From: Candidatus Fermentibacterota bacterium
GTDB lineage: Bacteria; JAFGKV01
Direction of reading: 5' to 3'
DNA length: 47,897 nt
Assembly: GCA_030620115.1 (NCBI GenBank)
Contig: JAUXFG010000006.1
Span: 1 to 47,897 of the forward strand
How positions within the stretch are numbered: the stretch's first letter is position 1; the number at the start of each line of letters is the position of its first letter. Of this stretch, positions 28,034 through 40,914 are shown piece after piece. The translations under genes and the position numbers were made by a program. The notes beneath the pieces were generated by a model. It saw nothing but the letters and a program-made list of their open reading frames with translations, was not told the origin of the DNA and did no database searches.

Positions 28034-29209
28034 GTGAGTCCTCAACCAAGCAGAAATCAGAGACTGAAACGACTCCATGAGCGCATGTTCAATGTGCCGC
28101 CTGCATGCATTGCTTTCGCGCCGGGGAGGCTCATGATCTTGGGCGACGGCGAGTATACCGATGATGGTCTCTCCATGGCCTGCGCCATCGGGAGGTACAC
28201 ATGGGTGGCCGCCTCTCCACGAGAGGATCGCCGCCTCGTTGCACACTCGGAGTGGGCGCGACAAACAATCCGCATCTCGCCACGCCCGCCAACCCCAACC
28301 GGTCACGGGTTTTGGGGTGATCACGTCGTGGGGGTGTGGTCAGGGTTGACCGCCGGCCGGGTACGGAATCGCGGTGTCTCTTTGACCATTACGGGAGATC
28401 TTCCACCCGGTATTGGCCTCGGCAGTTCGGCGTCGCTCCAGATGGCGGTGGCATTCGTCATGAGAGAGCTGTGGGATCTTCCCCTCGATAACCGAGATCT
28501 CGCCATGGTAGCCCACCGTTCCGAGAATCTCTTTGTGGGTGTGCATAGCGGGCTCGTTGATCAGATGGTAGCAGTGTCCGGCCGAATGAAAAAAATCTTG
28601 TGTCTTGACTGCAACACCTTCGAGACAAATCATATGGAGATCCCCTCTTACATCGATCTCGTGGTGTGTGATTCCGGGGTACATCGCGCCCTGGCTCGAG
28701 CACCGTTCAATGAACGGCGTGGTGAGCTTGATGAGGGGCTTCATTTCTTCAAGAATCGCTATCCTGGTCTCACCGGCTTTCGCCAGGTCAGTGCGGAGAT
28801 GTTGGTTCAGGGCGCCGAGGAGCTCTCACCGACTGCTCTCAAACGAGTCCGGCATGTGGTAACCGAGAATGACAGGGTCCGACGAGCCATCATTGCCCTG
28901 CGATGGGGTGACATCGAGACGTTGGGAGGTCTCATGCTCGCCTCTTACCGCTCACTGAAAGATGCATTCGACTCATCCACTCCCGAGTTGGACGAAATCA
29001 TCCATCTAAGCGGGGGTATCCACGGCGTCATCGGCTCCCGCCCTTCAGGACCCGGCTTTGGGGGCTGTACAATCCATCTCGTCGAGCACAAACATGCCGC
29101 GGCATTGGTGAAGCGCCTTCGGCGAGGGTACAAAACACCTGCCATGAGAACTCCTCAGGTATTTACTCTCTCTCCGGTTTCCGGCGCAGCTGTGGCGTGT
29201 TTTTCTTAG
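28034..29209 (+). CDS. GHMP family sugar kinase, galactokinase-like
   Basis: The 391-residue protein has the three GHMP motifs: PGRLMILGDGEYTDDG near the N-terminus, PPGIGLGSSASLQMAV (ATP-binding loop) and SGPGFGGCTIHLV near the C-terminus. It also has HRSENLFVGVHSGLVDQMVAVSG, the galactokinase segment with the catalytic Asp. The galactokinase signature normally reads GEHTDYNGG; here the His and several residues differ, so another sugar is possible. The start is GTG 28034 after AGGAGGGGG, with a longer option from 27989. Its end overlaps the convergent RluD gene by four bases. No other sugar-pathway gene is adjacent. Confidence 0.83.
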   Translation: MSPQPSRNQRLKRLHERMFNVPPACIAFAPGRLMILGDGEYTDDGLSMACAIGRYTWVAASPREDRRLVAHSEWARQTIRISPRPPTPTGHGFWGDHVVGVWSGLTAGRVRNRGVSLTITGDLPPGIGLGSSASLQMAVAFVMRELWDLPLDNRDLAMVAHRSENLFVGVHSGLVDQMVAVSGRMKKILCLDCNTFETNHMEIPSYIDLVVCDSGVHRALARAPFNERRGELDEGLHFFKNRYPGLTGFRQVSAEMLVQGAEELSPTALKRVRHVVTENDRVRRAIIALRWGDIETLGGLMLASYRSLKDAFDSSTPELDEIIHLSGGIHGVIGSRPSGPGFGGCTIHLVEHKHAAALVKRLRRGYKTPAMRTPQVFTLSPVSGAAVACFS

Positions 29210-30180
29210 GCTTGGCGACTCAAAAACTCAGTCAGCGCGCGATAGTCGGCAGGTGGGGGCACTAAGAAGCTCATTAGCTCATCCGTCTTGGGGTGACGGA
29301 AGGCTAGCTTCCACGAGTGGAGCGCGGGTCTGGAAATCATTGAGAGAGCCTCCTTTGCCTGAGCCCCCAGCCCCGGAGGCACTCTTCTCGTCGCCCGTCG
29401 CCTCCCTCCATAGTCGGCATCGCCAAAGACCGGATGCCCGAGATAGGAAAGATGCACCCTAATCTGATGCGTGCGGCCCGTGAGGAGGACAATCTCCAGT
29501 TCGCTCGCAAAGGTCCATTGATGGACCACTTCGAGGATGCTTCGCGCATCCTTGCCGCGCGGAGTCACCGCCATCCTTTTCCTGTACCGATGATGCCTGC
29601 CTATGGGGAGCCGTACTTCCTGGTTATTGGGATGAGGAATTCCCCAGACAATCGCCCTGTACCATTTTCTCACCAGCCGCCCCTGGATCTGGGCTGCCAA
29701 CGCGAGATACGTCGGCTCATCACGTGCCACCATGATGAGTCCGGAGGTCCCCTTGTCGAGTCTGTGGACGATTCCTGGCCGCTCAGGCCCTCCGGGCGCA
29801 TTGATACGCCCCCAGCGATGGATAAGTGCATTCACCAGCGTCCCATGCCTGCGAGGTCCGGCGGGGTGAACGACCATACCTGCGGGTTTGTTGATCACTG
29901 CCAGGTATTCATCCTCATGGATCATGTCGAGAAGTATTGGCTCCCCGGGAATAGACACCGTCGGCGATGCCGGTGGACTCACCACCACACGCTGACCGAG
30001 TTTCACCTTCGCTGCCGTCTTGCAGGATCCTCCGTCCACCGTCACGAACCCATCCTTGACCCACTGCTTCACGGTGGTCCTACTCGTATCTGTCATCATA
30101 CGCGATAGGAATACATCGAGCCGCAGATCCTGGTGATCCTCATCAACGTCGAAAACCAATGGATTTCGGTGAACCGCCAC
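29206..30180 (-). CDS. rluD: RluA/RluD-family 23S rRNA pseudouridine synthase
   Basis: The 324-residue protein has an S4 RNA-binding domain (about residues 18-70) and the catalytic domain with HRLDKGTSGL, where D142 is the nucleophile. LAVINKPAGMVVHP and LLTGRTHQIRVHLSYLGHPVFGD are also typical. Such enzymes convert uridines of 23S rRNA to pseudouridine; the exact site cannot be told, so the symbol is a best guess. The start is GTG without a clear ribosome site. The next gene on the plus strand starts 14 bases away, so the two share a short divergent region. Confidence 0.9.
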   Translation of the reverse strand: MAVHRNPLVFDVDEDHQDLRLDVFLSRMMTDTSRTTVKQWVKDGFVTVDGGSCKTAAKVKLGQRVVVSPPASPTVSIPGEPILLDMIHEDEYLAVINKPAGMVVHPAGPRRHGTLVNALIHRWGRINAPGGPERPGIVHRLDKGTSGLIMVARDEPTYLALAAQIQGRLVRKWYRAIVWGIPHPNNQEVRLPIGRHHRYRKRMAVTPRGKDARSILEVVHQWTFASELEIVLLTGRTHQIRVHLSYLGHPVFGDADYGGRRRATRRVPPGLGAQAKEALSMISRPALHSWKLAFRHPKTDELMSFLVPPPADYRALTEFLSRQA

Positions 30181-30193
30181 TTATATTCCAATC

Positions 30194-30757
30194 ATGAGAA
30201 TTCCAATAAAGACTGCGCAGAGGCAACCCGAAGGAATCATGGTGCGGGTCCACCCCACAGAAATCCGTCTCGCAAGGCTATTCACGATTCTCGGGATCGT
30301 GGGTGGAACAGTGATCTGCGGAGCCTTGGCTGTGCTGATTCTTCTGATAGCTGATCCAGGAGATCTTCTTGCCCTCCCCGAAGGAAGAAAAGCTCTTCTC
30401 TCTCTCGGAGCCATGGGAGCAGTTACTGCCGCCTTCATCGCATGCGCTGCCTACTACCTGAAGCGCCTGCCGCACATAGGCCTCACGCTGGACAGTGATT
30501 CACTGACGTGCACATCTGCATTCAAGTCCGTCCGGATCCCCGTTCACGAAATTGGCGAAATACGCATATCCTTCACGGGACGGATCCCCACCACATCCGT
30601 GACCTGGCGCAAGGGGACTCTTACGATTCGCGCCACGTTGACCGACCCCAAGAACCCAGGTTCATATCGAACGATCCACAAGGCCCCTGCCCAAGGGCTG
30701 CGGTATCTGGAGCATGTGCTGCTGCAGCGCAACCCAGGGATTAGATTCGTGCGCTAG
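30194..30757 (+). CDS. Two-span membrane protein with a PH-like soluble part
   Basis: This 187-residue protein has two membrane segments (about residues 30-52 and 70-92). A beta-rich domain follows, with LTLDSDSLTCTS, VRIPVHEIGEIRISF and TLTIRATLTD, similar to bacterial PH-like domains. The function is not known. ATG 30194 lacks a ribosome site, while ATG 30239 has GAAGGA upstream, so the true protein may be 172 residues. Its end overlaps the convergent lspA by 17 bases. Confidence 0.7.
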   Translation: MRIPIKTAQRQPEGIMVRVHPTEIRLARLFTILGIVGGTVICGALAVLILLIADPGDLLALPEGRKALLSLGAMGAVTAAFIACAAYYLKRLPHIGLTLDSDSLTCTSAFKSVRIPVHEIGEIRISFTGRIPTTSVTWRKGTLTIRATLTDPKNPGSYRTIHKAPAQGLRYLEHVLLQRNPGIRFVR

Positions 30758-31274
30758 CGCACGTCTTCTCTGTTTCGGTCTCTGACGATGCATGCCTTTT
30801 CCGGCCGCCACGTTTTCTCTCGGTGAGCAAGAGAAGGACTATCCCTACCACCACCGCGGCATCAGCAACATTGAATACAGGCCATCGGTGGGAGGAATCA
30901 ATGCCCACATCCAGGAAATCCACGACTTCCGTTCTGATCAGTCGATCAATGAGATTGCCCACCGCCCCTCCCAGGAGAATTCCCATGGAGGCGGTTCGCC
31001 AGGTGCTGACCCGGCTCTCCGACACGAGAATATACGCGATAAGCCCTGATCCAATAACCGTAATCGCCATCAAAGGCCAGCCGGTGAGTGGACCTGATGA
31101 AATGCCGAATGCGATACCTGGATTCCTTGTGTAGGTAAGCCGGACCACGTTGCCAAGGATCTGTATGCTTTCATGATATGCCATGCTGCTCATCACCCAG
31201 ATCTTGGTGATCTGATCAAAAAGCGTCAGCGACGCTGCAAGACCCATCCCAATCAGTATCCGTTTTGCCCGCAT
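30741..31274 (-). CDS. lspA: Lipoprotein signal peptidase II
   Basis: LspA cleaves the signal peptide of prolipoproteins in the inner membrane, after diacylglycerol is added. The 177-residue protein has four membrane segments and both catalytic aspartates: D119 in EVVDFLDVG and D138 in FNVADAAVVVG; GNLIDR is also seen. Normal length. The longer open frame was cut to ATG 31274, with GAGGG seven bases upstream. It is the last gene of the minus-strand run and overlaps the convergent PH-like gene by 17 bases. It would process the TPR lipoprotein, among others. Confidence 0.95.
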   Translation of the reverse strand: MRAKRILIGMGLAASLTLFDQITKIWVMSSMAYHESIQILGNVVRLTYTRNPGIAFGISSGPLTGWPLMAITVIGSGLIAYILVSESRVSTWRTASMGILLGGAVGNLIDRLIRTEVVDFLDVGIDSSHRWPVFNVADAAVVVGIVLLLLTERKRGGRKRHASSETETEKTCASARI

Positions 31275-31387
31275 CGTGATCCCTCTTGTCTCCTGGTAAA
31301 GGTAGGTCGGCTGCAATGGCCGCGGTCGAACCCTCTCCGCGTTTCTCTCGGAGGGGAAAAGGAGGTATCCGGAGGGCACGGGGATGG

Positions 31388-31852
31388 CTACTTTCCCCTC
31401 CGCCCTTCTGTTTCCTCATAGAACTCGAGCAGGCTGAGCTGGCGTTCGGCCAAGCTGCGGAGTTTGCTGAGGTAGTCGAGTCTCCTCAGTTCGAGGTCCT
31501 CAACCTCACGGGCTATCCTTGCCATGGTTCCCTGAATAGTGGTCACCTTCTTTTTCGCTTCTTCCTCCGCCCGCTCCAATATCAATTCCGCTTCTTTCTC
31601 GGCCGCCCGCCGAATCATCTCGGCATTCTTGCGCGTCTCGACCAATGTCTCATGCAGTGCATTCTCCACGGTCTGATACTTCTTCAGTTCCATTTGCATG
31701 CTCTCGCGCTCACGTTTGAGCTCCTCATATTTCCTATGGAGATTGAGCACCTTCTGCCCAACTACATCGAGGTAGCTATCGACCTCATCGGGGTTGTATC
31801 CACGAAAGCTCTTGGAGAACTCGTGTTCGGTGATTTCCAACGGTGTATCCAC
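31388..31852 (-). CDS. DivIVA-domain coiled-coil protein
   Basis: The 154-residue protein starts with the DivIVA lipid-binding motif (TPLEITEHEFSKSFRGY then NPDEVDSYLD) and continues as a long coiled coil (about residues 30-140) rich in Glu, Lys and Arg. DivIVA proteins mark curved membrane and organise division or polar growth. In Gram-negatives with this protein its job is less clear. SD AGGAGG lies five bases before GTG 31852. The yggS remnant lies 25 bases upstream; in Gram-positive and some other genomes yggS and divIVA lie in one division cluster, so the neighbourhood is old. Confidence 0.9.
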   Translation of the reverse strand: MDTPLEITEHEFSKSFRGYNPDEVDSYLDVVGQKVLNLHRKYEELKRERESMQMELKKYQTVENALHETLVETRKNAEMIRRAAEKEAELILERAEEEAKKKVTTIQGTMARIAREVEDLELRRLDYLSKLRSLAERQLSLLEFYEETEGRRGK

Positions 31853-31877
31853 CAACTCCTCCTTGATCTACCTATCT

Positions 31878-33382: not shown

Positions 33383-34060
33383 CTAACCAGAGCCCGAAAT
33401 CAGGGCAATCATCGGTTTGACCCATCCTTCGACAAGAAAAGTCAGCCGACCGATAAGAAGGGAGATACGAGCCATGATCGTGTAGCCAAAACTCGCACCA
33501 AAGCAGATCATGATGAAGTAAACACCAATCCTGCTCACCGGCTTCAGGATCCCCGTATGAGGCTTTGAGAAGTAGAAGTAGATGAGCACGCTTAGGACAC
33601 CTACAATGATCAGCAGGTTCTCGAATGTTACCGAAGAAAGGGAACTCAGGGGCAACATCGTATCTCTGACTTGCGGGAGCACATCTCCATGGAGGCGCTG
33701 CATGAGCTCCACGCCGACGAAATAGCCGATGTACACGGCAAGCGCCCATCTGCCAAGAAAAGACACTTTGGGGATGTAACGGCAATAGAGCATGATCCCA
33801 AGGATTCCGCCGATGGCAAGATACCAGTTTGGCCCCGGATCGGCGAGAAGACGCTCAACAAGATTCGGCCATATTGTCCTATAGAACACGAGGCCGATCT
33901 CATACCCCAGCGAGACGCCGACAAAAATGCTCTCGGCAAGCCTATACACGGGATTGTCCTTGTATAGGAAGCTATAGATGGCCAGCGTCAGGAACGCGGC
34001 CAGCCAGATGCCGGCAAAACTACTGAGAGCCAAGTCTTCCTCCAGCCCTTTTGCGCTCAC
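33383..34060 (-). CDS. Multi-pass membrane protein of the four-gene cluster (gene A)
   Basis: The 225-residue protein has about seven hydrophobic segments, including SSFAGIWLAAFLTLAIYSFL, LAIGGILGIMLYC, WALAVYIGYFVGVEL, LLIIVGVLSVLIYFYF and VYFIMICFGASFGYTIMA. I recognise no family. The start is GTG 34060, which puts it 41 bases inside the end of gene B; no other start lies nearby. It is the last gene of the cluster. It probably sits in the inner membrane with the other three products. Confidence 0.75.
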   Translation of the reverse strand: MSAKGLEEDLALSSFAGIWLAAFLTLAIYSFLYKDNPVYRLAESIFVGVSLGYEIGLVFYRTIWPNLVERLLADPGPNWYLAIGGILGIMLYCRYIPKVSFLGRWALAVYIGYFVGVELMQRLHGDVLPQVRDTMLPLSSLSSVTFENLLIIVGVLSVLIYFYFSKPHTGILKPVSRIGVYFIMICFGASFGYTIMARISLLIGRLTFLVEGWVKPMIALISGSG

Positions 34061-34898
34061 TCCGGGAGAAAAGATAGACCAAATTCCCCATGAGTATGAA
34101 GGCGATGATGATCAGGTGTACGATGGATTGCACGTCCATTCCCTTTATTGCTACGTTGGACCGGGATTTGAGCTCCGGGTAGGCGTTGCCCAGAAGCACC
34201 TCGTATTCCGCGCCGCCCTTCATTCCACCCATCAAGCCCACCATCTGCCCGGCCTTGAGATAGGCATAGTACTTGGGCGCCGAAACAGCCGTGGCCCCCA
34301 CGCCCACCGGCTGGCCGAACTGCGCGTTGACCAGGATTGCCCACCACTCGCCGATAATCCCCGTTGACAGGCTCACGGAGATCTCGATATCAGAATAGTT
34401 CCATACATCCTGCAGAAGAGGAATCTCGGAGTATTCTACCCCCCGAGTGTCTTTGGGAAAAACAATGGAGATATCCTCCGCCATCCGGCGAAGGACCGCA
34501 AGACCGCCATCTTTATAGCCCAGATAGACGTAATCTTCCCCCTCGACCACGGGAAATTCCTCCGCGACTTTGTAAAGGGCCTGCTTCGCCTGATTGTCAC
34601 CACCCAGGGGAAAAAGGGATATCACTACCACCCGGAGCCCTTTGACAAAGCAATGTCTCAAGACCGCATCCGCCATGGGATCAAGCTCCGGCGCGGAACT
34701 GGGGCCATAGTCAAAGGAGACCATGACCACCTGGCCAGGCTCAAATGACTCCATCCGGTCAAAGAGCTGTTCAACAGCGGGCGTTGTCTTCACCGGCAAC
34801 CCCATGGGCATCAAGATGGGAATCAAGGCCCCCACCGCCACCAAGATATAGACCCAGCGCTTATCGATCCCGCCTATCTTCTGCGCATCATCCATCAT
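34020..34898 (-). CDS. Membrane-anchored protein with a large soluble domain (gene B)
   Basis: The 292-residue protein has one membrane segment near the N-terminus (about 14-34), a soluble region of about 220 residues and a second membrane segment near the C-terminus (about 258-278, VHLIIIAFILMGNLVYLF). The soluble part alternates strands and helices (QVVMVSFDYGPSS, RVVVISLFPLGG, VYLGYKDGG, VGVGATAVSAPKYYAY), like a Rossmann-type fold. No catalytic motif is recognised. ATG 34898 overlaps the stop of gene C in TGATG. Both membrane segments point to an anchored periplasmic or cytosolic domain; topology is uncertain. Confidence 0.75.
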   Translation of the reverse strand: MMDDAQKIGGIDKRWVYILVAVGALIPILMPMGLPVKTTPAVEQLFDRMESFEPGQVVMVSFDYGPSSAPELDPMADAVLRHCFVKGLRVVVISLFPLGGDNQAKQALYKVAEEFPVVEGEDYVYLGYKDGGLAVLRRMAEDISIVFPKDTRGVEYSEIPLLQDVWNYSDIEISVSLSTGIIGEWWAILVNAQFGQPVGVGATAVSAPKYYAYLKAGQMVGLMGGMKGGAEYEVLLGNAYPELKSRSNVAIKGMDVQSIVHLIIIAFILMGNLVYLFSRSERKRAGGRLGSQ

Positions 34899-35545
34899 CA
34901 GTCTCCGGCACCGCCCATGTAGGGCCGCTCGATGCCAAGAATTACCCGGATCGCCATAGAAGCCGCTCCCAGAGCCGCTCCGATCAGGATTCCCCGTTGC
35001 GCGGCCAGGTTCGGATTGTTCATGATCCACTCAGATATCTCGAGGCTGTGCGGGAGTATATACTGGCCGATGGGAACCCGACCAAGCATGACGATGACCG
35101 CGGCGATCATGAGAACCGCGGCCTCGACATTCTTTATCCTGAATGCCCGGAATGCCGCCGAAGCGATCATGAACGCCAGAAGGCTGAACATCGTAGCCTG
35201 CAGCGGCGTAAACGCATATGTGAACAGCCAATCAAAGGCCGGTCTATCTCCGATTACCGCTCCACTTTTGAGCATTGACTCGAATAAACCCAAAAAGGCC
35301 ATGAGCCCTAACGAGGTGAGGCTGACGATCGAATTCCTCCAGTCCTTCTGTTTTCTCTGGATCTTTTTCGTATGATGCTGCGCAAAACTCACCACACCCA
35401 ACACCAGGGCGAAAGCGGTGACAATGATCAGCAACTCATCCAGCTTCTCGTTCAAGTCCACCACGAGCGGATGACCAATGAAAAAGGCAACTACCACGAA
35501 GGCGCCGGTGAGAAAACAAAGGACTATCGGCACCTGACGTTTCAT
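34898..35545 (-). CDS. Multi-pass membrane protein (gene C)
   Basis: The 215-residue protein has about six membrane segments, for example VPIVLCFLTGAFVVVAFFIG, LLIIVTAFALVLGVVSFAQ, IVSLTSLGLMAFLGLFES, FSLLAFMIASAAF and VLMIAAVIVMLGRV. A cytosolic or periplasmic basic loop (HHTKKIQRKQKDWR) follows the second segment. No family is recognised. ATG 35545 lies five bases past the stop of gene D, with AGAGGT upstream. It is coupled to gene B by TGATG. Confidence 0.75.
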   Translation of the reverse strand: MKRQVPIVLCFLTGAFVVVAFFIGHPLVVDLNEKLDELLIIVTAFALVLGVVSFAQHHTKKIQRKQKDWRNSIVSLTSLGLMAFLGLFESMLKSGAVIGDRPAFDWLFTYAFTPLQATMFSLLAFMIASAAFRAFRIKNVEAAVLMIAAVIVMLGRVPIGQYILPHSLEISEWIMNNPNLAAQRGILIGAALGAASMAIRVILGIERPYMGGAGD

Positions 35546-35549
35546 GCTT

Positions 35550-36710
35550 CTACCTCTGCGCGAAGAAGTCGACGAACCCGTGCTGCCCAAACGAAGCCAG
35601 CACCACGCCTAGAAGAATGAGACCCACAAGTACTACTTTTGCGAGATCCTGACCTTTGATCGACCCCATCATCAGCGGTTCCTTGGAGAGATAAGCGCTG
35701 GCCGCATAGAGCTCCTCGCCAATAAGCGTGTAGTCGCAGGCAACCACAAAAAACGGGAGCTGCGCAAGCTCTGCAGTACCGGCCACCTGAATTGCTCCCG
35801 CGGCGTTGCCGGCCTCTGCCATGATGAGCGACTCGGCATAGAATGAGCCAATGAGGAAATTCGTGGCGGGCTTCTCCCGCGTCATGAGGCCTTGCACGGC
35901 CGCCGTAAAGGCGAACTGATCATAGGAGACATAGTTCACCATGTCCTCTTGGAAATAGTCAGGTCGGCCCGCCTTCAGATAGGCCTCTTTGACCACTTCC
36001 TTGGCAGTGGCCAAGACCAGGGGATCTTTGTTGGGAACCTCCAGATCGGTCCCATATGAGGCCGTCTTTTCAGCAACGTATCCCAAGATGGACATGGAGG
36101 CCACGGTTTGGATATTGTCCACCGACATGATGCCGGGAATATACAGTACTTTCCGTCCCATCTCAGTGGCCCGCCCAATCGCCTCATCAACCGCATCAAG
36201 GCCTGCGATCTTGCGGATGAAGAGACTGGCGCCGCGCTTTGCCATGAGAATGTAGCCAATTATCATAGCGGCGTAGAAAAGGAATAGGAGCAGCGCGTTC
36301 AGCCGTTCCCGCCGGAAGAATTGATACTCCTGCACTGCGTGGGGAGCCGTGGCCCGCACCGTAGCGGAAACCACATTGGAATCTGCCATCCTGACGCGGT
36401 AGAGGTACTCGACACCACTCTCCACGGTAGTATCGACAAAGCTCCTCGCACCTGCCTCTTGCGTGCTGAGTGGAAGAAAAATCGAATCATGGGATGCACG
36501 TTCGAGCATCACGGGAATGCCTTGCGACGGCTCCCATGCCAGCGCGATCCCCATGGGTTCTTGTGAGCTATCGGCCGCAAGGAAGAAATCATGGGAAGGA
36601 GGCGCCAGCGAGTCTGTCTGCGCGGAATCAGGATCAGCAAGAATCGGCTCTTGTGCTCCCGCAGCTCCGGTGAGGAGGACTATCAACAGGCAGAAAAGAG
36701 GTTTCTTCAT
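35550..36710 (-). CDS. DUF6754-like protein with N-terminal beta-sandwich (gene D)
   Basis: The 386-residue protein has a signal peptide (KPLFCLLIVLLTGAAGAQ), a beta-sandwich-like segment (about 30-120), a membrane span (LLLFLFYAAMIIGYILMA), a large cytosolic-side domain and a C-terminal membrane span. The large domain has VDNIQTVASMSILGYVA, SFYAESLIMAEAGNAAGAIQ and CDYTLIGEELYAASAYLS, which I associate with DUF6754, an uncharacterised family; this name is from memory and should be checked by HMM search. ATG 36710 with GAGGG eight bases upstream is preferred over ATG 36725. It is the first gene of the cluster, 178 bases downstream of rplI. Confidence 0.78.
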   Translation of the reverse strand: MKKPLFCLLIVLLTGAAGAQEPILADPDSAQTDSLAPPSHDFFLAADSSQEPMGIALAWEPSQGIPVMLERASHDSIFLPLSTQEAGARSFVDTTVESGVEYLYRVRMADSNVVSATVRATAPHAVQEYQFFRRERLNALLLFLFYAAMIIGYILMAKRGASLFIRKIAGLDAVDEAIGRATEMGRKVLYIPGIMSVDNIQTVASMSILGYVAEKTASYGTDLEVPNKDPLVLATAKEVVKEAYLKAGRPDYFQEDMVNYVSYDQFAFTAAVQGLMTREKPATNFLIGSFYAESLIMAEAGNAAGAIQVAGTAELAQLPFFVVACDYTLIGEELYAASAYLSKEPLMMGSIKGQDLAKVVLVGLILLGVVLASFGQHGFVDFFAQR

Positions 36711-36847: not shown

Positions 36848-36889
36848 AGGGCTCGCGCAGAAATAATTTCACATTCTTGCGCGAACCCT
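36848..36889 (-). terminator. Hairpin after rplI
   Basis: AGGGCTCGCGCA (36848-36859) and TGCGCGAACCCT (36878-36889) pair over 12 bases with one G-T wobble. It starts at the rplI stop codon. There is no T-run, so termination may be partial, which would give the membrane cluster a share of the ribosomal transcript. Confidence 0.55.
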
Positions 36890-37350: not shown

Positions 37351-37797
37351 TTAGAAGGGCATATCATCGTCGCCCTCAACCGCGTCAGCCCCAGCGTCAG
37401 CCCCATCTGTATCAGGAGTCGAAGGCGGAGCGCTATACTCCCTTTGCGCCTCCGGACGCGATAACATCTGAAACCTCTGCGCATGAATCTCGATGACACT
37501 ATGTCTCTGGCCGTCGGAGCTCTCCCAGGTACGCGAGTGCAGTCGTCCTTCCACAAGCACGGCGGTGCCCTTATGTAAGATCTCCGCGATCTTCTCCGCC
37601 AATTTCTGCCACGCTACCACCTTGAAAAAGCTGGTCTCCTCCCGATTCTCGCCGGATGAATCCCGAAAGCGGCGATTAACCGCGATACCAAACGTGGCAA
37701 CAGCGGCGCCTGAAGGCGTATACCGCATTTCCGGATCCCGAGTCAGTCGCCCGACGAACTGTACGAAATTCAGAGTTGGGAGTCTCAAATCAGCCAT
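37351..37797 (-). CDS. ssb: Single-stranded DNA-binding protein, copy 2
   Basis: The 148-residue protein has an OB fold (about residues 8-110) with LTRDPEMRYTPSG, VEGRLHSRTWE and KVVAWQKLAEK, a flexible linker and the acidic tip DDDMPF that docks partner proteins. It is 18 bases upstream of rplI, where rpsR is usually found. A second ssb of the same length precedes it by 95 bases. They are clearly diverged and probably do not arise from a recent duplication. Confidence 0.95.
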   Translation of the reverse strand: MADLRLPTLNFVQFVGRLTRDPEMRYTPSGAAVATFGIAVNRRFRDSSGENREETSFFKVVAWQKLAEKIAEILHKGTAVLVEGRLHSRTWESSDGQRHSVIEIHAQRFQMLSRPEAQREYSAPPSTPDTDGADAGADAVEGDDDMPF

Positions 37798-37892: not shown

Positions 37893-38339
37893 TCAGAATG
37901 GCAGATCGTCTACCAAGGCTTCGGCATCATCGCCGGAAGGAGTCTCCGGGGTGGTCCCACCATCGCTCGCCGGGAAGTCCTGACGAGGCTCTTCCGCCCT
38001 ATTCAAGAACTGAATGCGATATGCCCGTATCTCGACAATTGTCCGCCGCGTCCCATCATCGGTATCCCATGATCGACTCTGGAGCTCTCCCTCGATCAGG
38101 ACAGCACTCCCGCGATGAAGTCGCTCACCGACCAATTCCGCCAATCGCTGCCACGCAACCACGTTGATATAGCAAACATCCTCGCGCCTTTCGCCATCCT
38201 GGGAACGATACCATCGATTCGATGCAATCCTGAAATTCGCCACAGGTGTCCCCGACGCGGTGTACCTCAACTCTGGATCGCGGGTCAGATTGCCCGCCAT
38301 GAAAACCCGGTTCAGATCCGGCAGACGAAACTCAGACAT
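37893..38339 (-). CDS. ssb: Single-stranded DNA-binding protein, copy 1
   Basis: The 148-residue protein has the OB fold with LTRDPELRYTASGTPVANF and VVAWQRLAELVGERLHRGSAVLIEGEL, and the acidic tip VDDLPF. It lies 34 bases after rpsF, the classic place for ssb. Which of the two copies is the main replication protein cannot be decided from sequence; this one holds the classic position next to rpsF. Confidence 0.95.
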   Translation of the reverse strand: MSEFRLPDLNRVFMAGNLTRDPELRYTASGTPVANFRIASNRWYRSQDGERREDVCYINVVAWQRLAELVGERLHRGSAVLIEGELQSRSWDTDDGTRRTIVEIRAYRIQFLNRAEEPRQDFPASDGGTTPETPSGDDAEALVDDLPF

Positions 38340-38889: not shown

Positions 38890-40914
38890 CTACCTAACAA
38901 ACACTGGTGCAAAAACCAGAGCAACAACACACATCAATTTGATCAGAATGTTGATCGAAGGCCCAACCGTATCCTTCAAGGGATCTCCCACGGTGTCCCC
39001 CACCACCGCATTCCGATGAGCCTCAGATCCCTTCCCTCCGAAGTGGCCATCCTCGATGTACTTCTTGGCATTATCCATGGCTCCGCCTGAATTCGCGGTT
39101 TGAATCCCCAGCATCAATCCGGTCACGAGTGCCCCCACCAAGAGCGCTCCCAGACCCTCAGGGCCCAGCGGGGAAAATCCGGCAATCACGGGAGCCCCAA
39201 GCGCCAGGAAGCCAGGAAGCATCATGCCCTTGAGAGCGCCTGCGGTGCTGATATCCACGCATCGGGCATAATCCGGGCGTGCTTTTCCTTCCATCAATCC
39301 GGGTATCTCCCGAAATTGACGACGAACCTCATCAATCATCCTGTTGGCCGCATCGGAAACCGCACCAAAAAGAAGCGAAGAAAAGAAAAATGGAAGCATA
39401 CCGCCGATGAGCAAGCCTGCCATGACCTTGGGATCGGTCAGACTGACCTCCGAAGGAGCAATGCCCGCGGTCGTCATATACGCCGAGAGCAGTCCGATCG
39501 CGGCAAATGCGGCCGATCCGATGGCGAATCCCTTTCCTATGGCCGCCGTGGTGTTACCCACGGCATCGAGACCGTCGGTCACGTTGCGCACAGCTGGATC
39601 GAGATGCGCCATTTCCGCGATCCCCCCGGCGTTATCAGCGATGGGGCCATACGAGTCCACAGTCACCACCATGCCGGTGGTTGCCAGCATTCCCAATGCC
39701 GCCAATGCCACGCCATAGATCCCTGCCGCCTGGTGAGCCACAATCACTGCAGCGGCAAGCACAAGAACGGGAATCGCCGTGGACTTCATCCCAATGGCGA
39801 GCCCCTCCACTATGGTGACAGCCGCCCCTCCCTGGCTTTTCTCCGCCATCTTTCGCACTGGTGGATACTTGCTGCTTGTGAATAACTCACTCACGAAACC
39901 CACCACCATGCCCGAAACAAGGCCTGCAAGGATTGCCCAAAAAGGTCCCAGCACGCTATGATTCTGAAAGGGAATGCCCCACTTCCAGACAACGATGAAG
40001 CTCCCAATCGCCGTGAGCCCGGCACTGATATACGTCCCTGCCATGAGTGCGGCCTGCGGGTCCTTGCGGCCAATCCCCCGCACCACGAAAATACTGATGA
40101 TGGATGAGACTATCCCAATGGAAGCTATGCCGAGGGGGAGCCACATGAGGAATCCCGCCACTCTCGCCGTGGTGGCCAACACGGCTGCGATGGCCATGGA
40201 AGCGATGATCGACTCCACATAGGATTCCAACAAGTCAGCGCCAAGGCCTGCAACATCGCCTACATTGTCTCCCACATTATCGGCAATCACCGCAGGATTG
40301 CGCGGGTCATCTTCCGGGATACCGGCCTCGACCTTGCCCACAAGGTCTGCACCCATATCAGCACCTTTGGTGAAGATGCCTCCTCCGGAACGGGCGAACA
40401 ATGCAATGAGACTTGCGCCCATGGCATAGCCGGTTATGATCATAGCCTTCTCTTGCGTCACATCCCCACCGACGAACAAGAAAAGCACAAGACAGAGGCC
40501 GAGGAGAGCGAGCCCCACGACGCTGAGACCCATCACCGCCCCCCCCGAGACAGCTACATCAAGGGCCGGCTTGACACCGCTCTTGGCCGCCTGAGCGGTC
40601 CGCGCATTGGCGCGTGTGGCCACCCACATCCCGATGTATCCCGCAGCCCCCGACACAACGGCGCCGAGGACAAAACTGACAGCCGTCTCCCATCGAAGAA
40701 CCAACGCCAAGACTATGGCCACAGGCACCAAAACAAGAAAAACCGTTCGGTACTCCCTATCCAGAAATGCGGCGGCACCTTCCTGAATGGCTCTACTCAG
40801 TCTCCGCATCTCCTCATCACCCGGCGATTTCCTCAAGACTGATCGAGCCAAGACAATAACGGCCAAGAGCGCTGCCAGACTACTCACGAGGCTGATCAAC
40901 CAAACGCTATTCAA
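38890..40914 (-). CDS. hppA: Membrane-bound ion-pumping pyrophosphatase
   Basis: The enzyme couples pyrophosphate hydrolysis to pumping of H+ or Na+. The 674-residue protein has about 16 membrane segments and the signature [18 protein letters not shown] then [28 protein letters not shown] has Ala where the K+-independent enzymes have Lys, so a K+-dependent enzyme is indicated; K+-dependent members include both Na+ and H+ pumps. The start is TTG, overlapping the pth stop in TTGA. It is unusual to see it between pth and rpsF. Confidence 0.95.

Follow-up and report, generated by a model that had tools for sequence, protein, structure and literature searches.

A conserved four-gene DUF6754 membrane module that co-occurs with a GlmL-type ATPase and a barrel-sandwich protein across bacteria

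Four closely packed genes, here called D, C, B and A, recur in the same order in bacteria from dozens of families and almost certainly belong to a real multi-gene system that also includes the proteins MutL and F0. The genes lie in a 47,897-nucleotide contig (JAUXFG010000006.1; the whole of this stretch is called the window) of the 4.1-Mb draft genome of a Candidatus Fermentibacterota bacterium (GCA_030620115.1). A preliminary description, made from the sequence of the window, had proposed an undescribed, conserved four-protein membrane unit, a proposal that our results bear out: C, B and A follow D in this order for 101 of the 112 DUF6754 genes sampled, and we found no description of the unit. 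To our knowledge, the DUF6754 family entry names a domain without assigning it a function. Searches for DUF6754, PF13941 and GlmL in the literature outside subscription papers and preprints returned nothing relevant, and no database entry was found that links C-B-A, MutL and F0 to DUF6754. With DUF6754 present in 88 of 326 genera, the system looks like a common, unstudied machine of about a quarter of the sampled bacterial genera.

The features of the locus are collected in Table 1. The preliminary description had given the packing of the four genes exactly, with 4 nt between D and C, a TGATG shared by C and B, and a B-A overlap of 41 nt. The last value, which holds when A is read from its GTG, calls for refinement. 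An alternative TTG at 34033 is preceded by GGAGG and coincides with the start position of most homologues; it is likely to be the start of A, and the true overlap is therefore probably 14 nt. The four proteins are 71–80% identical to those of the orthologous module in a sister genome (L049), and dN/dS values of about 0.05–0.15 in this comparison (NG86; approximate, with dS saturated) indicate that all four genes are under purifying selection. A DUF6754 gene from a Candidatus Fermentibacteria MAG is likewise 80% identical to D of the window.

Table 1. Coordinates of the D-C-B-A module and neighboring features in the window.
Feature	Position	Strand	Description
Gene D	35550..36710	-	386 aa; signal-peptide-like start, FN3 ectodomain, TM, DUF6754 domain (inferred cytosolic), TM
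FN3 domain of D	36345..36593	-	Residues about 40-122; profile and fold matches
DUF6754 (PF20539) domain of D with flanking TM helices	35565..36326	-	E=3e-115
Gene C	34898..35545	-	215 aa; six-span membrane protein; without Pfam family
Gene B	34020..34898	-	292 aa; TM, Rossmannoid domain, TM; without Pfam family
Rossmannoid domain of B	34179..34781	-	Residues 40-240; predicted extracytoplasmic
Gene A	33383..34060	-	225 aa from GTG, with a more likely start at the TTG at 34033; seven-span; without Pfam family
Hairpin just 3' of the rplI stop	36848..36889	-	Strong; terminator-like, no good T run; between rplI and D

The distribution of the module was assessed in a sample of bacterial genomes that seems to have been drawn by first taking a single genome from each phylum. 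Of its 386 genomes, 102 carry DUF6754, and these represent 67 of the roughly 258 families sampled. Well-known control genomes, 14 in number, all lack the domain. Around the 112 sampled DUF6754 genes, the median gaps within D-C-B-A are 9, -1 and -1 nt. Conservation of this order is far beyond chance, and the alternative that the four genes lie scattered in relatives of the window's genome is thus contradicted. Variations on the theme exist: two or three modules stand in tandem at eight loci (L043, L044, L088, L090, L101, L108, L118, L124), and a solo D or additional B genes occur in some genomes (L009, L041, L119, L120). The fixed-ratio complex that the preliminary description had read from the packing is at most a possibility. 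At the other extreme, a genome of 0.9 Mb (G199, 98% complete) retains the module at locus L142. A plasmid or mobile origin was rejected, as there was no plasmid match and orthology was vertical. Assignment to a defence system was also rejected: PADLOC gave no match for D, C, B, A, MutL or F0, and only a chance-level one for F7.

The four genes, presented in the preliminary description as a four-gene cluster, are indeed a unit, but only the membrane half of one, as MutL and F0 co-occur with them almost perfectly. At about 30 loci, which for the most part represent separate families, MutL and F0 lie beside D, in most cases directly upstream. The usual order is F7-MutL-F0-D-C-B-A, where F7 (about 80–180 aa) precedes MutL (about 605 aa) and F0 (about 375 aa); 20 loci also encode a small membrane protein with a PH-like appearance. 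Of the 102 genomes with DUF6754, 97 have F0, whereas the 284 without DUF6754 all lack it (Fisher p about 6e-86; a marginal 19-bit match in G210 was left out of the count); a strong MutL, defined by a score over 600 bits or by a split into pieces, occurs in 92 positives as opposed to two negatives (p about 2e-74). Both p values are inflated by genome relatedness, but the near-perfect match of F0 and MutL to DUF6754 stands without them. Several genomes moreover encode single proteins of about 950–1050 aa in which MutL is fused to F0, including that of the window, which has a 985-aa fusion (L157:9132-12089, G000 contig C160) besides a separate pair; similar fusions occur in G001, G002, G083, G117, G242, G254, G341, G353 and G381. 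A core of six to eight genes that co-occurs this closely in 67 of about 258 families suggests a basic function that model organisms lack, as do its retention in a 0.9-Mb genome and its expansion to six or more copies elsewhere.

MutL is a member of Pfam family PF13941 (E=1.1e-128 for the L040 protein, 1.8e-93 for a fused protein) and keeps the ASKHA phosphate motifs DCGSTTTK and DIGGATTD. The GlmL/MutL family (PF13941, TIGR01319, NF040745) comprises accessory ATPases of methylaspartate mutase and ornithine degradation. The MutL of the system shares this ASKHA family, but differs from its described members in several respects. The MutL of the window's genome scores below the cut-offs of NF040745 (237.1 versus 475 bits), NF040744 (220.5 versus 600 bits) and TIGR01319 (183.6 versus 204 bits); the system's proteins measure about 600 aa, compared with about 455 aa for GlmL; and their loci hold membrane modules. 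No recurring mutase gene was noticed on inspection of the neighbor clusters. F0 begins with a barrel-sandwich domain that matches RnfC_N in 21 and NQRA_N in 4 of 30 members; its middle domain is conserved, and its C-terminus is probably KOW-like.

The preliminary description had classified the four membrane-module proteins correctly, as a signal peptide/beta-sandwich (now FN3)/TM/DUF6754 protein, a six-span protein, a soluble domain between two TM segments, and a seven-span protein. D matches PF20539 over the full domain (E=2.8e-115, 384 bits against a cut-off of 27, profile positions 3–256 of 257), preceded by a signal-peptide-like start, an FN3 domain supported by profile and fold matches, and a TM helix, and followed by a last TM helix. 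The length of the ectodomain and the number of FN3 copies vary, from several FN3-like repeats in the 943-aa D of L040 to none in the 258-aa D of L061, which leaves no room for FN3. The charges of the flanking regions would place the DUF6754 domain on the cytosolic side. B was predicted by AF2 (pLDDT 95) as a six-stranded Rossmannoid domain between two TM helices, in agreement with hydropathy; its flanks are rich in K/R in 97% of members, and charge patterns predict that the domain faces the outside of the membrane. Foldseek returned no close PDB fold for the B model, and its matches were too weak for a SLOG/LOG-like reading of the GGxKGxxE motif, which we do not claim.

Rossmannoid folds usually bind ligands at the C-terminal edges of their strands. 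At or near such edges lie the conserved D63, E71, G127, D150, T203 and GGxKGxAEYE of B, and the conserved residues of D are near these edges as well in a confident predicted model. In the predicted models, helices and strands are arranged in the same order in the DUF6754 domain of D and the Rossmannoid domain of B. Profile comparison of the two domains gave no significant similarity (hhalign E=0.28), and the lower value of 0.018 covers a TM stretch only. B and D are therefore not put forward as proven homologues, and the idea of paired domains is suggestive only.

C, B and A lack any Pfam, NCBIfam, PADLOC or PDB match that identifies them, and no Pfam family was consistently recognized among the 51–60 members examined of each. 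The preliminary description had noted that none of the products matches a known transport or secretion system; no transporter family was recognized in 51 A and 55 C proteins, which have seven and six hydrophobic spans, respectively. A TauE match of C was dismissed, as it occurred in one of 55 members and below the cut-off, and homology of A and C was not significant (hhalign E=0.078).

The explanation that we consider best, and put forward tentatively, is that D-C-B-A forms a membrane module and MutL-F0, usually with F7 and sometimes with the PH-like membrane protein, the cytosolic half of a machine cycling at the expense of ATP. A and C, with their 7+6 spans, would form the membrane core or path. 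The Rossmannoid domains of D and B, with their conserved ligand-type edges, would face the inside and the outside of the membrane, respectively, and both may bind a ligand there. MutL would hydrolyze ATP and F0 would couple it to D/C, driving conformational cycling of whichever D-C-B-A module MutL docks on, so that a small molecule would be moved, or loaded, across the inner membrane. Contact between D-C-B-A, MutL and F0 is suggested by gene neighborhood and co-occurrence. Transport driven by ATP is a possible job for the system, though we would not give it an even chance; no consistent substrate clue emerged across D-C-B-A neighborhoods. If the explanation is right, four protein families would gain their first assigned function, and an actin-fold/GlmL-type ATPase would prove to be coupled to a membrane in a novel manner. 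The locus structure makes the system directly testable.

Copy numbers provide a further hint. Genomes carry one or few MutL-F0 pairs, as opposed to one to six or more D-C-B-A modules, which suggests a shared cytosolic part that serves several membrane parts. ECF transporters, in which a shared energizer serves several substrate modules, offer an analogy, with no homology seen: both combine one or few cytosolic energy units with several membrane modules per genome. The core locus, however, contains no recurring ABC ATPase, EcfT or S component. We cautiously entertain a new class of machinery with interchangeable, possibly transporter-like D-C-B-A inner-membrane modules, which would have Rossmannoid domains on opposite faces and be energized by a GlmL-type ASKHA ATPase together with a barrel-sandwich adaptor. 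On the comparisons made here, the system looks like one that fits no known kind, a statement that in itself claims no function.

A sensory or signaling complex is a rather unlikely alternative. Here, the FN3 ectodomains of D and the outer domain of B would sense a stimulus, C and A would transmit it, and DUF6754 with MutL-F0 would signal inside. The variable length of the FN3 ectodomain and the many diverged paralogs per genome agree with such a role, as do neighboring genes: a HAMP-HisKA kinase beside the module in L014, a Ser/Thr kinase and a metallo-beta-lactamase fold protein in L045, and a PAS-HisKA kinase after F0 in Fermentibacteria loci. These kinase neighbors vary by lineage, however, and the ectodomain is dispensable, as seen in the D proteins of 258–292 aa from L061, L137, L060 and L142. 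Nor would a receptor need a conserved ATPase or the 13 membrane spans that A and C have between them.

Still less probable is a role for MutL, an ASKHA (actin-fold superfamily) ATPase by its Pfam MutL and NCBIfam GlmL matches, in organizing inner-membrane proteins into an assembly platform or envelope scaffold, in the manner of PilM/GspL in pilus and secretion platforms. Those systems likewise place an actin-fold protein beside inner-membrane proteins, and tandem D-C-B-A arrays could make hetero-oligomers. No sequence relation to PilM/GspL was seen, however, and inspection of the recurring neighbor clusters brought up no pilin, secretin, prepilin peptidase or secretion ATPase. Nearly all positives among 183 genomes have Omp85, but so do 173 of the 183 overall, and this correlation therefore carries no weight.

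Genomic linkage raises the question of a membrane enzyme or chaperone tied to glycine, lipoate or one-carbon metabolism, which we regard as improbable. In the window's genome, the separate F7-MutL-F0 genes lie on another contig (C105; L156) directly after gcvT, gcvH, gcvP and a lipoate-ligase gene, and MutL-F0 is found directly behind a glycine-cleavage operon and lipoate ligase gene in L158 too. Overall, gcvT/H/P and/or lplA adjoin 11 of 41 MutL/F0 loci versus 2 of 59 loci with D-C-B-A only, the latter two matches being probably aminotransferases. The linked loci come from families f1, f70, f104, f131, f174 and f253, to which coordinates add G068 (f67) and G137 (f136), about eight families in all; lplA lies within the gene run in the window's genome, L108, L124 and L144. 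Most D-C-B-A-only modules are nevertheless away from gcv genes, and GcvH occurs in 160 of 183 genomes, whether or not they have the system, so that the two distributions do not match.

A redox-driven ion pump of the Rnf/Nqr type, with F0 as RnfC/NqrA (PF13375, PF05896) and the 6–7-span proteins A and C in the membrane, is very unlikely and was rejected, since the likeness of F0 is limited to the barrel-sandwich fold, its alignment has no conserved cysteines, no RnfA/D/E or NqrB/D/E-type subunits were found (no consistent match to Rnf-Nqr (PF02508) or related families in 51 A and 55 C proteins, with a single chance-level PF02508 match among the latter), and an ATPase has no place in Rnf/Nqr.

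The genome of the window illustrates the expansion of the membrane module, with seven DUF6754 genes in six full D-C-B-A modules and one solo D, next to one separate MutL-F0 pair and the fused protein. In a tree, the seven DUF6754 copies fall into separate clades, and all except L012 have an orthologue in the sister genomes G001 and/or G002; the copies are therefore old, distinct and retained. A solo DUF6754 gene without C, B and A (L009:9146-10321, also L041 and L042) is orthologous in three genomes of the family, and in L009 and L041 it is preceded by two large hydrophobic proteins that resemble GT-C glycosyltransferases. L014, with L062 and L063, represents a D-C-B-A clade that has diverged strongly; its flanking genes encode an SH3-domain protein and a giant membrane histidine kinase.

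Basal expression of the module from its position behind rplI, as suggested in the preliminary description, finds little support: the two genes are separated by 178 nt containing a 12-bp hairpin (-29.4 kcal/mol, z -6.2), and rplI adjoins the module only in the window and the sister genome. The hairpin has no clear T run and was not called by a T-run terminator scan. Beyond it, inspection by eye located tandem single-strand-binding-protein genes (37351-37797 and 37893-38339) between an apparent rpsF and rplI, and a putative membrane-bound pyrophosphatase (proton/sodium pump; 38890-40914). Downstream of the module (29206-31855) lie genes for an RluA/RluD-type pseudouridine synthase and lspA, followed by a protein that appears DivIVA-like by eye.
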